A stretch of 64,000 nucleotides of DNA from Halobellus limi (GTDB lineage: Archaea > Halobacteriota > Halobacteria > Halobacteriales > Haloferacaceae): NCBI RefSeq assembly GCF_004799685.1, contig NZ_CP031311.1, positions 1,178,001 to 1,242,000 of the forward strand, written 5' to 3'. The notes under the pieces were generated by a model. It was given only the letters and a program-made list of their open reading frames with translations. It made no database searches and was not told the origin of the DNA. Position numbers and translations under genes: made by a program. How positions within the stretch are numbered: the first letter of the stretch is position 1; each line of letters begins with the position of its first letter. Shown piece by piece: positions 7,955 to 16,614 of this stretch.

Positions 7955-8060
7955 ACTACTCCACCCTACTCGCTCACGGCGTCGCCGTTCGCTTCGTTGA
8001 GGGTTCCGTCAGACTTCGTCTGACGGCGTGCAGACTGTGCGTCTGCACTGGGGTTTTCGC
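7955..8060 (-). ncRNA. Candidate reRNA (omega RNA) from the 3' end of tnpB
   Basis: Inside the 3' end of tnpB are two adjacent perfect hairpins: an 8-bp stem at 8028-8035/8041-8048 and a 9-bp stem with a 3-base loop at 8006-8014/8018-8026. A smaller GC-rich hairpin follows nearer the stop codon. TnpB guide RNAs are known to be made from the 3' end of tnpB and the element's right end. Boundaries are estimated, and the guide segment would fall at or below about 7960. Confidence 0.45.
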
Positions 8061-9285
8061 GTGGACTCTCGTTCTGGCCTTCACAGGCAGGCTCGTAATC
8101 GCCGTTCACGTTCAACGTCCCGCGATTCAAGCGCACGTTTACGGGTGCGCCTCCGCTCGACGACTTTTGCGCCGAACGGAGATACTTCAGACCGATATTC
8201 TTCGCCGCGTTATAGTCAGCGTTCACTTCGTAGCCGCACTTCTGGCAACAGAACCACTCTTGTGTCTGGCGGTTCTCGCGGAGTGTCGTCCCACACTTCG
8301 AACACCGTTGGGATGTGTAGGTGGGACTCACTTGCTCGACCGAGATGCCGACCACCTCGGCTTTGTATTCAACGTACTCGAACAGCCGGCGGAACGCCCA
8401 GACGTGGAATTTCTTGGCGTTCGGCATCCGCTCACGAATTCCAGTCAGGTTCTCGAACGCGATCACGTCGCAGTCGGTTTCGACGGCTTCCGCGATGAGT
8501 TCCTTCGAGACGGTGTGTAAGAAGTGGTCGTAGCGGCCTGTCTCCGTGCGTCCGACCGACTGGATAGTTTCGTGAGCGGCTCGCGTTCCACGTTGTTGAA
8601 GCGATCCGCGCCGCTTCTCGAACTCGCGGTGCCAGTGGTTCAACTCTGATCCGTTCCAGAACGTACCTGTCGAAGTGACGGCGACGTTTTCGATGCCGAG
8701 GTCAACGCCGAGGACTGTGCTGTGCTCGTCGTTGCCTTCGTCGGCAGTCTCGAACTCCACGTCCGCCTTTGTTCGGACGTGAAGGTAGAAATCCCCCTCT
8801 CGGTAGTGGAGTTCTGCGCCCGTCACTTCGTAATTAGTATTGAACAAGTACTTCGAGTGTGGCGTCTCGCGGTTCTCGTCGGGAAGAACGTACTCGGCGG
8901 TGATGCGTCCGTCCACGGTTGAGAGTGTGGCGTGGTCGTCGTTGAACGTCGCACACCGCTTGTCGTAGACGAGCGTCGGGGCGGAGAAGTGCGGTTTTCC
9001 TGCGTAATCACCTTGCTTCCACCGAGCGACGACGCTCTGGACGGCGTCGGCGGCCTTGTTGCGGGCGTTCTGCACGAGATTCGCTTGGAGCCGAGTCTCT
9101 GCCCGCACGTGGTCGTACGTTTCGCGTTGGAGTTCGGCTTTGCTTGTCGTCTTGTACTCGCCTTGCCACGCGTGGTCTACGACGTAATTGGCAGCCCACA
9201 AGAACTCGGAGACGGTTTCGTGGAGGAGGTCGGCGTCGCTGTCTGCCACGTCGAGTTTTACTGGAACAGTACGACGGACCTCCAT
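7966..9285 (-). CDS. tnpB: TnpB, RNA-guided nuclease of an IS200/IS605 (IS1341-type) element
   Basis: The 439-residue protein has the RuvC-like triad: D195 in [11 protein letters not shown]278 in IAFENLTG and D357 in [11 protein letters not shown] zinc finger lies between the last two (CSKC at 328-331, C347 and C350). The N-terminal half has the usual wedge/REC-like region. All catalytic residues are present, so it looks active. No tnpA is seen within the window, which makes it an IS1341-type element that would need a transposase elsewhere. GC is a little lower than in neighbours. The C-terminal 60 residues are encoded by hairpin-rich DNA that probably doubles as guide RNA. Confidence 0.92.
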
Positions 9286-11340: not shown

Positions 11341-11395
11341 GCCCAGCGGAACACTACCGGGCGAAAAGGGATTAATAGACTCGGTGGAACTGTAA
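11341..11395 (+). repeat. Island repeat, copy A
   Basis: This copy contains the invariant core GGAACACTACCGG followed by GGGCG and, about 20 bases on, TAATAGACTCGGTGGAA. The first half forms a GC-rich hairpin with a 2-base insertion compared with copies B-D. It lies 83 bp before the universal stress protein gene. Confidence 0.8.
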
Positions 11396-11477
11396 TGGGT
11401 AGGCTGTGGCATTCAAGCAGGAGTTTTCGCCGATCAGTTGGGAACGTGTGTATTGTGGAAAATTGGCTCCCATCTTG

Positions 11478-12362
11478 ATGTGGCCCCTGAACGAATTCGG
11501 TGGTGTGTTCGAGAACATCCTTGTCCCGACCGACGGAAGCGACTGTGCGCAGGCGGCTGTCGGGTACGCCGCAGACTTGGCGACACGTTATGATTCGAGG
11601 GTACACGCGCTCTGTGTGGCTGATTCCAGAACGCTCGAAAACCTCCCACAGTACGACCAAATTACGAAAGAACGTGAGGAGGTCGCTGAAAGGGCCTGCA
11701 ACGACCTTTCCGAGAGTGGCGTCGCAGTTGAACAAGCCGTCCGTACTGGCGTCCCCTACGAGACGATTCTCCGGTACGCGACCGAACAGGATATCGATCT
11801 CATCGTGATGGGGACACACGGTCGAACCGGCGTCCAACGGTATCTGCTAGGGAGTGTCACCGAGAAGGTCGTCCGGCTCTCGGATGTGCCAGTATTGACG
11901 GCGAAATCGGAAGGCGACGGCGAAGTCACGTGCCCTTACACCGAAATCTTGGTGCCGACCGACGGAAGCGAGGGAGCTGAGGCCGCTGTTGACCCCGCGG
12001 TCGATATCGCACACACCTACAATGCTCGCCTCCATACGCTCTCGATCATCGATACGATGGCGATGGGCGTCGACGTCCGTTCCGGTGCAATCCTCGAAGC
12101 ACTCGAAGAGTCAGCCCGATCCGCGGTAAAAACCGTCGAGGAGCAAGCGGCCCAAGCTTCTGTGTCTGCGGTAGAAACCGAGATTGAACACGGGAGCCCC
12201 TACCGAGGGATTCGTTCCTACGTTGAGGAACACGACATTGATCTCGTCGTGATGGGTACCCACGGACGCAGTGGGATCGAGCGATACCTCTTGGGAAGCG
12301 TCGCCGAAAAGACAGTGCGTACGTCACCAGTTCCTGTAATGACCGTTCGTCAGCCAGAGTGA
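11478..12362 (+). CDS. Two-domain universal stress protein, 294 aa
   Basis: Two UspA domains lie in tandem. The first begins VFENILVPTDGSDCAQAAVG and ends with the ATP-binding motif MGTHGRTGVQRYLLGSVTEK. The second begins YTEILVPTDGSEGAEAAVDP and ends MGTHGRSGIERYLLGSVAEK. Both G-2X-G-9X-G(S/T) type loops are intact, so it is probably an ATP-binding UspA. The ATG at 11478 was chosen; a GTG at 11505 would start right at the first domain, and an ATG-less extension upstream has no family match. It lies in the repeat-bounded island, just after copy A. Confidence 0.88.
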   Translation: MWPLNEFGGVFENILVPTDGSDCAQAAVGYAADLATRYDSRVHALCVADSRTLENLPQYDQITKEREEVAERACNDLSESGVAVEQAVRTGVPYETILRYATEQDIDLIVMGTHGRTGVQRYLLGSVTEKVVRLSDVPVLTAKSEGDGEVTCPYTEILVPTDGSEGAEAAVDPAVDIAHTYNARLHTLSIIDTMAMGVDVRSGAILEALEESARSAVKTVEEQAAQASVSAVETEIEHGSPYRGIRSYVEEHDIDLVVMGTHGRSGIERYLLGSVAEKTVRTSPVPVMTVRQPE

Positions 12363-12428
12363 ACCAGCGATCAGGAATGAGTCTTGATCTGTCTTGCCGT
12401 GTAGAATCTACAGATAAGCAAGGCGAGT

Positions 12429-12451
12429 GCCTCGGGGCTTGACCCCGAGGC
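12429..12451. repeat. Perfect 9-bp hairpin after the stress-protein gene
   Basis: GCCTCGGGG and CCCCGAGGC pair around CTTGA. It is 66 bases past the stop codon, so it could end transcription. The stem and the following CGGTTCACCG recur in a degraded form at 23273-23300, which points to a dispersed element end. Confidence 0.5.
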
Positions 12452-12647
12452 GGTTCACCGTTCTCAACACTGAGTCCGCCCTGAACCACTTCTCCGGTCA
12501 AAGGATGCCCCGCTTCTGTACTCGACACTGACTACTAGGTCATCCCCCGGCGTGCTTCCAGTAACTAATGGCTGTCTCCGGTTCGACGGGCTGTAGGTAA
12601 TTAAGCATAAAAGACGGGAGAATTTTTTGGTGGTCTCGGGAGACCGT

Positions 12648-13571
12648 TCAGGTCGTCTCTTCTTTCGGGGGCTGATACCCACGGCGGGAGAGATGAAAGA
12701 TGTTGAGCGTCCGGAGAATTCCGTGGATACCCAGACATGAGCCGAACGCTATCGTCCCCAATTTCCCGCCTGACCCCCCGACGAACGGCGTCGTGTACAC
12801 GACTACCAGCCCGACCCCGATTCCAGTCGTTCCGATCCACCACTCGTTCGGGATTCGTTTCGGATCCGTCATCCCCGCGAACGAAGCGGAGTAAACGGCC
12901 GCGGCGAGTAGTTCCCCCGAGGCATCGACGAATACCGGGAGCAGGAGCCCGCCAACTGTACCCACGAGCCCGGAGGCCAAGACCGGATCCGCAGCCGAGC
13001 GAGTATGAACCGTGAAGGAGCTGATGGCACTGAGTGCCGCGAACCCGACCACTGGGAAGAGTACACGCTGACTGGGGATTGTGCCACTCTGAAAGGAGCC
13101 AGCAGTCGGCAGCAAGATCATCAACACTCCGACGAACGCGGTCGTTCCCAGCTTTCCACCTACGCCGTGAAACACCGGATGGGCGACGGTAAACAGAAGT
13201 CCGGCAAGCACCGCGGCGAGGGTCGCATACCAGTATGACCCGAACAGCTCCGGAGAGGTCATCCCGACGAACGCGCCGCAGTACACTGGGACAGCCACGC
13301 CTTGGATGGTTATGGCTGCGATGATTCCGACCAAACTGGCGGCTACAATCGGAGACACCCCCAGTTCTGCGACACCAGCGAAGGTGAGCAACGTCCCGCT
13401 AACGACAGCTAACAGGTTCTGATGGGCCTCGCTAACAACAACAGTCCCTTGGTCGATAACACGACGCAGTTCCCACCACTCGTATCTGATTCCTAACCCG
13501 GTTCCGAGGGTACCAGCAATGAGGACTGGACTCAGCAGTATGGGCCCGCTCGGAAGGAAGGTGCCCCACAC
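12648..13571 (-). CDS. Polytopic membrane protein of unknown function, 307 aa or longer
   Basis: About eight to nine hydrophobic helices are visible. Two related segments occur, AVPVYCGAFVGMTSPELFGS and AAAVYSASFAGMTDPKRIPN, suggesting an internal duplication. GGKLGT also occurs twice (VGGKLGTTAFVG and SGGKLGTIAFGS). The only start in this frame is a GTG at 13571, but hydrophobic coding sequence continues in frame upstream to about 13643 without any ATG or GTG, ending at a stop. The gene may have lost its true start. I cannot assign a substrate. It is convergent with the stress-protein gene and lies between repeat copies A and B. Confidence 0.6.
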   Translation of the reverse strand: MWGTFLPSGPILLSPVLIAGTLGTGLGIRYEWWELRRVIDQGTVVVSEAHQNLLAVVSGTLLTFAGVAELGVSPIVAASLVGIIAAITIQGVAVPVYCGAFVGMTSPELFGSYWYATLAAVLAGLLFTVAHPVFHGVGGKLGTTAFVGVLMILLPTAGSFQSGTIPSQRVLFPVVGFAALSAISSFTVHTRSAADPVLASGLVGTVGGLLLPVFVDASGELLAAAVYSASFAGMTDPKRIPNEWWIGTTGIGVGLVVVYTTPFVGGSGGKLGTIAFGSCLGIHGILRTLNIFHLSRRGYQPPKEETT

Positions 13572-13787
13572 GCCGAAGCCGAAGAGAACGAGCGGTGCTA
13601 CCGCCAGGAGGAGAAACCCCCGACCACTGGTGGCCAGGGCAGTGACCGTTCAAGTACGTTCCAGTGTGTCATCGGTCAGCTAGAGGGATCGGCAATTCGG
13701 TTCAATCGATGAGCATCCATTGACGGTGTCCGGACTAAAGCCGTTCGTATTATTCACAGACTTTTCTAATAGAATATCTGAAATGTC

Positions 13788-13837
13788 GCCCGGAACACTA
13801 CCGGGCGAGTTTCTACTAATAGCTCGGTGAAAGTGAA
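13788..13837 (+). repeat. Island repeat, copy B
   Basis: GCCCGGAACACTACCGGGC makes a perfect 6-bp hairpin with a 7-base loop. It is followed by GAGTTTCTACTAATAG and CTCGGTGAAAGTGAA. It lies between the membrane-protein gene and the APC permease gene. The rest of the 323-base gap (13572-13894) holds only the possible upstream coding remnant described for the membrane protein. Confidence 0.85.
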
Positions 13838-13894
13838 CGAGTGAGTCCACATTGAACGAGGGCGTCTCGCCGTTTTGAAATTTCGTCGCTCAGA

Positions 13895-15247
13895 TCAGCC
13901 TCTCTCCCCACTGTCGACATCGGGTGTGAACGAACTCCGATCGACATAGAGGGACTCGACGAGAAAGACTACCGCGAAGATCCCGATAATCCAGAGCAGA
14001 ATCTCCACGTCAGTCCGATAGAGGTGATAGAGAACGATCGGGAGTGCGACTCCCGTACCGACCAGACCGAGTACTGGGATGAAGCGGTTCGACCCCGTCT
14101 CGTCGGCGAGTATGAGGTTCGTGTAATTCGTGACTGCAAACGAGATCAGAAACGCCACTGATCCGAACTCGGTGATCTGTTTGAGAGTGCCGAGGGCTGC
14201 GAGTGCTGCCGTCAGACTCCCGATGATCAGCAACGCGTAGACCGGGATTCCGTCCCGATTCCGAAACGAGAACAGACGGGGGAGTGCTCCCTCCGTTGCG
14301 ATTTTATTAACGAGCCGCGAGGTGCCGAAGAGAGTCGCGTTGATACCTGAGGAAGTGCTCTTCATCGCCGAAAGGATCACCAGAACGAATCCCGCACTCC
14401 CGAGCACCGGTATGTTGGAGACGGCCTCGGCCAGGGCGACTTCCCGATGGGCGAGGAGTTGCTCGGGCGTGAGATGGAGCGTTGCCATGAACGACACCGA
14501 AACGTAGATTAGAATCGCGATAGCGATGGCGACGTACATCCCGATTGGTAACACTCGTTCTACGTTTTCGATGTCTTCGTAGTCATAGACCAGTAGTTGG
14601 AATCCTTCATAGGAGACGAAGATGATGGCGAATCCGGTGATGGGGCTGACGACGCCCTTGCTGAAGAAGTCCAGCGCAGCCACGCTCCCATCGTAGAAAA
14701 CCACTCCGAGGGTTGCGAGCGACAGCAAGATGACGATTTTGATGTACACCGCGATATCTTCAAAGAGACCAGTCTCCTGGACCCCCCGGAGGTTGAGCCC
14801 GACGAACGCAGCGACGATCATTGTCGAAATCACCGGCCGCAGGAGTTGCGGGAGTTCGATTCCTGCGATGGCTCGCGCGGCAGTGAGCGTGTACGCACCG
14901 AAGGCGAACGCGTACATCGCCATCACACCCACGTATCCGACGACGAGAATCCACCCGACGTACGCGGCGACAGTCGGATTGTCGACGATGTGCTCGACGA
15001 ACGAAAAGACGCCGCCGTGCTCGCCGAAGTGCAGCGTGAGTTTGAGATAGGAATAGGCAGTGAGGAGGGTGATGACGCCCGCAATGAAATACGACAACGG
15101 GACTGCATTACCGGCTTGCTGCATTGCGACGCCGAGTACGGCGTAGATCCCGCCGGAAACCATTCCGCCGACACCCATCGCGACGACCTCGACGAGTCCG
15201 AGTCGCCCGGGACGACTGCGAGTCAGGAGAGATCGGAGTGATTTCAT
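13895..15247 (-). CDS. APC-superfamily amino acid permease, 450 aa
   Basis: Twelve hydrophobic helices are visible. The first includes VEVVAMGVGGMVSGGIYAVL, the glycine-rich unwound helix that binds substrate backbone in APC transporters. Helix 6-like sequence GFAIIFVSYEGFQLLVYDYE matches the second broken helix. The length is usual for the family. It should import amino acids or related compounds across the cell membrane, but the substrate is not readable. It is the only gene between repeat copies B and C. No stress-protein domain is fused, unlike the permease at 34780-37032. Confidence 0.85.
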   Translation of the reverse strand: MKSLRSLLTRSRPGRLGLVEVVAMGVGGMVSGGIYAVLGVAMQQAGNAVPLSYFIAGVITLLTAYSYLKLTLHFGEHGGVFSFVEHIVDNPTVAAYVGWILVVGYVGVMAMYAFAFGAYTLTAARAIAGIELPQLLRPVISTMIVAAFVGLNLRGVQETGLFEDIAVYIKIVILLSLATLGVVFYDGSVAALDFFSKGVVSPITGFAIIFVSYEGFQLLVYDYEDIENVERVLPIGMYVAIAIAILIYVSVSFMATLHLTPEQLLAHREVALAEAVSNIPVLGSAGFVLVILSAMKSTSSGINATLFGTSRLVNKIATEGALPRLFSFRNRDGIPVYALLIIGSLTAALAALGTLKQITEFGSVAFLISFAVTNYTNLILADETGSNRFIPVLGLVGTGVALPIVLYHLYRTDVEILLWIIGIFAVVFLVESLYVDRSSFTPDVDSGERG

Positions 15248-15290
15248 AGGGGATATGATCGAGATGTCCAGTTAACCCATTAAAACATCT

Positions 15291-15343
15291 GCCCGGAACA
15301 CTACCGGACCAGAAACTGCTAGTAGGCTCGGTGGAAGTGTAAC
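15291..15343 (+). repeat. Island repeat, copy C
   Basis: GCCCGGAACACTACCGG is followed by ACCAGAAACTGCTAGTAGG and CTCGGTGGAAGTGTAA. It lies between the permease start and the Doc-locus small gene. The second palindrome (CTGCTAGTAG) keeps its pairing character with different bases from copies B and D. Confidence 0.85.
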
Positions 15344-15383
15344 TCACGCGTCTGCGAATCGAGAATAGACGTATGTGAAACCG

Positions 15384-15524
15384 CTACTCGTTTTCGAGGG
15401 CGTCGTAAATATCGCGGTGTTCATCCCGATCAGCCTTGGCGACGTGCAACACGAGCGCTCGACGAATGTCATCCATCACATCATCGAGTGGCGTTCGTTC
15501 GCCTGTCTTCTCTTCCGTCGCCAT
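15384..15524 (-). CDS. Small acidic protein beside a broken Doc toxin, 46 aa
   Basis: The ATG complementary to 15522-15524 gives MATEEKTGERTPLDDVMDDI and a short Asp/Glu-rich helical protein. A longer in-frame start at 15602 overlaps the toxin reading frame and is less likely. It begins 25 bases after the toxin stop, so the two were probably one transcript. It could be an antitoxin or accessory protein, but it shows no Phd/YefM or AbrB motif that I can recognise. Confidence 0.5.
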   Translation of the reverse strand: MATEEKTGERTPLDDVMDDIRRALVLHVAKADRDEHRDIYDALENE

Positions 15525-15549
15525 ATCTATCTCTTGTCTATGAATCCGG

Positions 15550-16037
15550 TTAATCGTTCGGGTCCGATGAGTCATCGGACAGCTGTTCGAGTCCATACTC
15601 AACGAGATCGCCTCGACATCGCTTGACCACTTCGTTCAAATCGACACCGGACGTGTGTGTTCGGAGATATTCGAGCACGTGGTCCTCATCGACCGTCGTC
15701 TCGTCCGTCCCGAACTGCTTCAGTATCTCCCTGACCTCGTCGTCGTAGTCGAATCGATACCCATTGAGCAGGTAGAACACAGTCGTCGCGTTGAGTGCGG
15801 TGCGCTTGTTGCCGTCCACGACGGGTGATTGGCGACGAGAAGCCGAAGCAGATGAAACGCCTTCTCGTGAACCGTCTCCGGAACTGACCCGAAGCTCCCT
15901 TCGCTGATGTAATCCAGCGCGAATTCGATGTCGCCACGGCTCTGGATGCCCGAACTCGTGTCGGGATACTCCGAGACGATGTCCTCGTGGATGTCGAGGA
16001 CATCCTCGACCGATGGATACCAGAACGAGTCGGTCAT
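15550..16037 (-). pseudogene. Doc/Fic-family toxin gene broken by a frameshift
   Basis: The 5' part (start 16037) encodes MTDSFWYPSVEDVLDIHEDI through FHLLRLLVANHP. In the next frame the sequence resumes with VVDGNKRTALNATTVFYLLN, so together they restore the Fic/Doc active motif HPxxDGNKR. The junction is near 15822, where one base is missing after the CACCC. The rest of the Doc fold, including the C-terminal helices, is intact. Doc toxins phosphorylate EF-Tu in bacteria. As written the gene makes a truncated protein, so the toxin is probably dead unless this is a base-call error. Confidence 0.8.
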
Positions 16038-16148
16038 CGTCGGAGTCTCACGCCGAACAGACCTATTGTTTTCTCTCTACGACTGTACGAGTCTCGGAAG
16101 TACTCCACAGGTCTTCTGTGAGTAGAATCATTGTATCGAAGGATGTGC

Positions 16149-16199
16149 GCCCGGAACACTACCGGACGAGTTTCTACTAGTAGACTCAGTGAAAGTAAA
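16149..16199 (+). repeat. Island repeat, copy D
   Basis: GCCCGGAACACTACCGG, ACGAGTTTCTACTAGTAG and ACTCAGTGAAAGTAAAA match copy B closely. The central CTACTAGTAG is a perfect palindrome. It lies 112 bases upstream of the Doc start codon. Confidence 0.85.
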
Positions 16200-16381
16200 A
16201 CGGACTGGAGCACCAGCATCTGGCGACCGAGTGGCTCGTAGAGCCCGGTAGGTCGCCAGTTCACTCGCGCGAGCGAATGCGAGCGCGAGGCCAAGGAAGG
16301 GGCGAAGCCCCTGACGCAGGCTTTTGGTCGAGCTTTTGCCGAGCGAGCCGCAGGCTCGCGTAGCGCAAAAGGTCGATGTAC
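16200..16381. other. Gene-free low-complexity stretch between repeat copies D and E
   Basis: The sequence contains runs of GCGAGCG-type repeats, a GAGCC/GGCTC hairpin near 16346-16356 and short direct repeats such as GCTTTTGGTCGAGCTTTTGC. No coding sequence is apparent. Such sequence is common beside insertion scars in haloarchaea, which is background knowledge rather than proof here. Confidence 0.5.
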
Positions 16382-16405
16382 GCCCGGAACACTAACGGCC
16401 GGCCT
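16382..16405 (+). repeat. Island repeat, copy E, truncated
   Basis: GCCCGGAACACTAACGG keeps the first hairpin half with one change from the core and then diverges. The upstream context GATGTACGCCCGG matches copy D's GATGTGCGCCCGG. It is the last copy before the core-type gene at 16615. Confidence 0.6.
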
Positions 16406-16614
16406 CATCCCGGGGCTGCGTGCCGCGTCGGCCGGGAAACCCTCGTGTCGGGCGGTCCGTCTTTCGGGCGCGGACGGTCCACGGATGTCGCACACCCGGG
16501 TTCGCCGCCGATTCATCGCTCCCGTAACGGGAGAACTCGGGCGGGGACTAAGGGTGCGCACTCGGACGAACGGGACCGACGCCCAAGGCCGTTCCGGCTC
16601 GCTGTCGGAACCGG

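Follow-up and report, generated by a model that had tools for sequence, protein, structure and literature searches.

What has placed unrelated, lower-GC genes between copies of one repeat, all in the same orientation, in the chromosome of Halobellus limi? We analyzed a window of 64,000 nucleotides (contig NZ_CP031311.1, positions 1,178,001 to 1,242,000; coordinates below are those of the window), in which five repeat copies, sites A to E, span about 5 kb. We conclude that the locus is probably a gene-cassette array, assembled where site-specific recombination acts on the 3' end of a structured RNA gene, apparently a homologue of HgcG. Site E is the fixed end of the array and coincides with the 3' end of the RNA. 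Whole modules recur between cores in other genomes, and in one pair of close relatives a cassette has been inserted exactly at E.

Sites and cassettes of the array

The initial annotation had reported five copies of a core on the plus strand, and its sequence matches at 11348, 13792, 15295, 16153, and 16386, the last with one mismatch. A search of the whole genome (3.75 Mb) confirmed the count: the repeat occurs five times forward and never in reverse, every copy is in this cluster, and a backwards control gave no match. One site is a 21-bp core in which inverted 7-bp arms flank AACACTA. At A to D the repeat runs for about 50 bp into a second block, as first described, with a one-sided motif of about 32 bp (CTACTAGTAG...) to the right of the core; this motif is absent at E. 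The genes inside had been noted as lower in GC, and the content is indeed 0.569 within the array versus 0.655 outside, with none of 98 other 5-kb windows that low. The features are as follows.

11343..11396, plus strand: site A, distal end of the array; core CCAGCGG-AACACTA-CCGGGCG (11343-11363) and one-sided extension
11406..12362, plus strand: universal stress protein with two Usp domains, cassette A-B (Pfam PF00582, 3e-74)
12648..13571, minus strand: membrane protein with no Pfam match, cassette A-B
13787..13839, plus strand: site B; perfect core CGCCCGG-AACACTA-CCGGGCG and extension
13895..15247, minus strand: APC-family amino acid permease, cassette B-C (Pfam PF13520, 4e-35)
15290..15343, plus strand: site C; core and extension
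15384..15602, minus strand: small open reading frame (ORF) with no Pfam match, cassette C-D
15550..16037, minus strand: Doc/Fic toxin gene, frameshifted, cassette C-D (Fic match in the L081 copy, 4e-10)
16148..16200, plus strand: site D; core and extension
16169..16380, no strand: cassette D-E, gene-less, member of a recurrent family
16381..16401, plus strand: site E; core CGCCCGG-AACACTA-ACGGCCG, no extension; serves as the fixed array platform and as the RNA 3' end
16381..16562, minus strand: predicted conserved structured RNA gene, putative haloarchaeal homologue of HgcG, with the core as its 3' end

The contents of the first three modules (Usp and membrane protein, permease, Doc) are as originally described. 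The interval D-E, said to hold nothing, is a recurrent gene-less cassette, and E is not a fifth copy of the same kind, being the end of a conserved RNA gene. The left arm of site A appears decayed, as would be expected of an old, displaced RNA 3' end. The small ORF at 15384..15602 is probably the antitoxin partner in cassette C-D. Compared with L078 and L080, the Doc gene of the window lacks 1 bp near 15819, which disrupts the reading frame around the Fic motif; this deletion is possibly a sequencing error. To the left of the array there is a stand-alone TnpB-like (IS605 OrfB) ORF (7966-9285, minus strand), which nothing seen here connects to the cassette sites.

Whole cassettes move from core to core

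We collected 100 cassettes (median, 995 bp), which fall into 45 families, eight of them found in more than one genome. Several families align core to core at 82 to 97% identity with differing neighbors, and whole modules recur between cores in other genomes in other cassette orders. Cassettes recurring in this way encode Doc (858 bp), a PIN-like protein (DUF5615; 760 bp), and a PemK-like protein (822 bp). Across the order, many cassettes hold toxin-antitoxin pairs. The 858-bp doc cassette, C-D in the window, is also present in L080, L081, and L082. These recurrences bear out the earlier proposal of a cassette array with recombination sites as its boundaries. The same proposal would have suffered from copies elsewhere in the genome, or from modules and repeats moving independently; all copies are here, and the modules recur whole.

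The insertion point can be read from L076 and L077, which are otherwise about 98% identical and differ by a single 225-bp cassette placed precisely at E, with its breakpoint inside the core. The left arm of E has been replaced by that of the cassette. L072 is an empty locus, with an aminotransferase gene, 45 bp, and then E; in L082, from the same genus, 4.5 kb occupies this position. We found no relative of the window genome that shares its left flank and is empty. The gene-less D-E family (about 220 bp) occurs in 11 arrays and adjoins HgcG in nine of them; such a cassette may hold a promoter, a terminator, or an RNA. Its members are at 16169-16380 of the window and in L057, L060, L062, L063, L076, L095, L154, L160, L164, and L171.

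The arrays are spread across the order Halobacteriales. A site model scored in 139 of 392 genomes from many families, with up to eight sites per genome (E <= 1e-3; most of the matches around 1e-4 are site E itself). The sites are on the 3' side of the RNA and carry the opposite strand label, as seen in 20 genomes checked directly and from listed positions in others. A pattern scan of 84,980 species confined the cassette site to haloarchaea. No cassette site was found in plasmid and phage collections or in viral contigs, and short-core scans of viral contigs gave mostly chance-level matches and one informative case, L298, described below. Copies away from HgcG are exceptional and were seen in G241 and G046. 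The former has a pair of sites 7.4 kb apart in L153 (G241:C1:277727 and 285111); the latter has sites at G046:C1:800 and 3331572. No recognized integrase is present between the sites of these pairs.

A probable HgcG homologue and the proposed exchange of its tail

When both array flanks were joined as a query, the DNA from E rightward (about 16385-16560) was conserved in 51 of 60 relatives, and the left flank was not syntenic in them. Aligned as a minus-strand RNA, the conserved part forms 43 pairs, of which 19 show a change on both sides, and 97.5% of cells are paired. Shuffles never scored as high, and slid versions failed. We therefore regard 16381..16562 (minus strand) as a conserved structured RNA gene whose expression is predicted. 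A model of its 3' domain (R2) found exactly one copy of the RNA in 375 of the 392 Halobacteriales genomes (339 of the 345 of high quality); one genome has two copies.

The window RNA does not match the Rfam model of HgcG (RF00064), and Rfam gave no match on the array region. In other classes of the phylum, the haloarchaeal 3'-domain model yields single, full-length, weak matches. Two of these loci, L177 and L181, also match RF00064; L181 reaches 38.7 bits (gathering score, 77) with an E value of 2e-9 across the full model. Because the two models match the same loci, relatives in other classes link the window RNA to HgcG by transitivity, and it is best read as a divergent homologue; the full-length match is what ties it to them. 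In other Halobacteriota classes, loci L176-L183 are candidates for HgcG homology; most fall under the Rfam score, and the family model could be extended with them. We did not find a role of HgcG as an integration platform in the literature searched.

In the last helix of the RNA, the left arm of core E is paired with an internal strand. Some lineages have variants of this arm (CGCCCGC, CACCCGG, GGCCCGG, and TGCCCGG), and in these the fixed partner strand has changed to match. Overall, 96 of 105 pairs between the exchanged arm and the fixed partner are compatible, in 15 distinct combinations, and none of 2,000 shuffles was as high, relatedness being uncontrolled in this comparison. Where E has a variant arm, the same variant is found in 25 of 44 cassette sites and the common arm in four, which fits array sites inheriting former E arms. 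These observations suggest a requirement for incoming cassettes to be compatible with the host RNA. The core overlaps the RNA 3' end, and the RNA gene stays intact after insertion, as in elements that integrate at the 3' ends of noncoding RNA genes.

We propose the following mechanism. The minus-strand RNA ends at the fixed site, E. A cassette would arrive as a circle with one site, made up of a left arm, the AACACTA overlap, a right arm, and the one-sided extension, which may bind accessory factors. A crossover inside the core would insert the incoming cassette beside the RNA gene, with the older cassettes beyond it. The fresh left arm of the cassette would become the new 3' end of the RNA, and the old left arm would be shifted outward. 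Repeated insertion would produce direct sites, with the newest cassette adjoining the RNA. The recombinase would act in trans. A rare tyrosine integrase is the strongest candidate; it is encoded together with a helper gene on viruses or integrative elements for which the HgcG core is also the target.

Candidate recombinases and known cassette systems

The layout of the site suits such an enzyme: tyrosine-recombinase cores have a 7-7-7 organization, matching the 7-bp arm, AACACTA, and 7-bp arm of the cassette sites. As the initial annotation had said, there is no integrase in the window; we found no match to PF00589 there, and the nearest one in the genome is an Xer-like protein 184 kb away. 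At the start of the virus contig L298 is the 3' end of HgcG; next come a 212-amino-acid (aa) gene and a gene for a 368-aa tyrosine integrase. The 212-aa helper gene has weak coiled-coil and helix-turn-helix matches, resembling the SNJ2 integrase helpers with their coiled-coil and MarR-like parts (PMC8371274). The integrase and helper pair also directly follows the HgcG core in chromosomes G099 and G100, and the G099 integrase is 44% identical to that of L298 across 246 residues. A helper without an integrase adjoins a site inside the G091 array. We favor, with moderate confidence, the explanation that HgcG-specific integrases of this kind mobilize the cassettes in trans.

Several results weigh against this explanation or against the array model as a whole. 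None of the arrays tested contains a recombinase or integrase homologue, and neither recombination nor an excised circle was observed. Frameshifts are present in the integrases of both G099 and G100. The HgcG-linked integrase is rare: one of 382 genomes has a match at 1e-25, a cutoff that is probably too strict for judging its frequency, and that copy is away from HgcG. No relatives of it were found in plasmid and phage collections. The autonomous elements showed no cassette-type extension at a second end, and the second ends of the G099 and G100 elements were not found in the roughly 40 kb searched.

The universal Xer-like recombinase could be the catalyst instead. Of 60 relatives, 55 have this protein (47 to 90% identity), nearly always as one copy; it is related to XerA, with an insertion, and by sequence that of the window genome appears to match the halobacterial Arch1 type (PMC8138268). 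The order-wide distribution of the arrays is what a universal host enzyme would predict. However, Arch1 and the core are not physically linked, and the integrases beside HgcG belong to another family. Moreover, the motif GUUAGUG in the core is conserved in the HgcG of other classes, which have no arrays, so that RNA function accounts for its conservation; because of this, E need not be a dif site. We consider a host Xer enzyme acting on the same array a credible but less likely option. The Xer-like recombinase (L135-L138, G000:C1:1378086-1379171) also matches PDB chain 9i5v_14, which is oddly labeled as a RaiA translation inhibitor.

The array might also be a true integron that lacks its integrase, that is, a cluster of attC sites lacking integron-integrases (CALIN). 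Integrons, CALINs, and archaeal integrons (PMC9668308) likewise have a fixed platform where insertion occurs and tandem cassettes in one orientation, each with one site. They too carry toxin-antitoxin and gene-less cassettes, often with no integrase in cis. In the one case resolved here the newest cassette is at the platform, and tandem one-site cassettes do move as units into the platform site. However, an integron site should fold, and we found no support for a folded, attC-like site. We compared 44 sites from 23 regions in relatives, which have a common anatomy: left arm CGCCCGG, AACACTA, right arm CCGGGCG, and then AGNNNCTACTAGTAGGCTCGGTGGAAGTGAAA. Individual copies can be drawn as tempting hairpins. 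Over the 44 sites, however, covariation of three tested hairpin pairings never exceeded that of shuffles, and RNAalifold gave 0 pairs, so the folded sites of the initial annotation found no support. Its remark that the repeat lacks GTTRRRY did: none of the 44 sites has a GTTRRRY or RYYYAAC box. With no IntI-like protein in the arrays, a symmetric-arm core with a one-sided extension, and a noncoding RNA gene as platform, a CALIN is very unlikely. The array works like an integron yet fails integron membership on the tested features, and we file it among site-specific cassette systems.

Two other systems are close in part. In the XerCD dif (pdif) modules of Acinetobacter (PMC6449649 and PMC13141974), accessory modules, often toxin-antitoxin pairs, are located between short core sites and the recombinase is encoded elsewhere; here, too, modules between short cores move as units and the array encodes no recombinase. 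Unlike this array, with its chromosomal location, single orientation, fixed RNA-gene platform, and site extension, pdif modules are mostly plasmid borne with dif-like sites. Integrative elements at tRNA and tmRNA 3' ends, with att-site accretion (SNJ2 type; PMC8371274), also have the core at an RNA 3' end, and the incoming element restores the gene. Here, in contrast, the target is HgcG, and the units are about 1 kb, lack an integrase, and form up to seven or eight tandem sites. The HgcG-linked elements of L298, G099, and G100 do have their own integrases; the cassettes do not.

Transposition is a still poorer explanation. The TnpB-like ORF and the unrelated lower-GC genes flanked by repeats might suggest the ends of a miniature inverted-repeat transposable element (MITE) or an IS200/605-type element, but the copies are direct sites in tandem at one locus, without terminal inverted repeats, and the cassettes share one end motif and insert at one site. 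The initial annotation had offered the ends of a non-autonomous mobile element; the notion of such an element comes close to our model, and MITE ends do not. A role of the repeats as small RNA genes, or as elements regulating their neighbors, is just as improbable despite the closeness of the sites to the 5' ends of several genes, since their strand is constant whatever the gene direction, they have no covarying structure or Rfam match, and entire modules move core to core; the structured RNA adjoins E, outside the repeats.

We found no earlier description of these arrays in the open-access papers searched. A word search of PMC9668308 gave no occurrence of "halo" or "Euryarchaeota". The arrays are probably an order-wide archaeal counterpart of the integron, with HgcG as platform, a double-stranded one-armed site, and a recombinase in trans. 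Each cassette would supply the RNA 3' end, so that exchanged DNA coevolves with the fixed helix strand. If this is true, haloarchaea have a gene-capture system comparable to integrons, which would explain the spread of toxin-antitoxin, stress, and transport genes among them. The site would be a hotspot worth inspecting in any haloarchaeal genome, and the HgcG RNA family would extend into the order. The exchange of the RNA tail is an unusual case in which the sequence of a host RNA is partly supplied by mobile DNA. Tests of the system are feasible in haloarchaea amenable to genetics, and a tool for cassette insertion could result.

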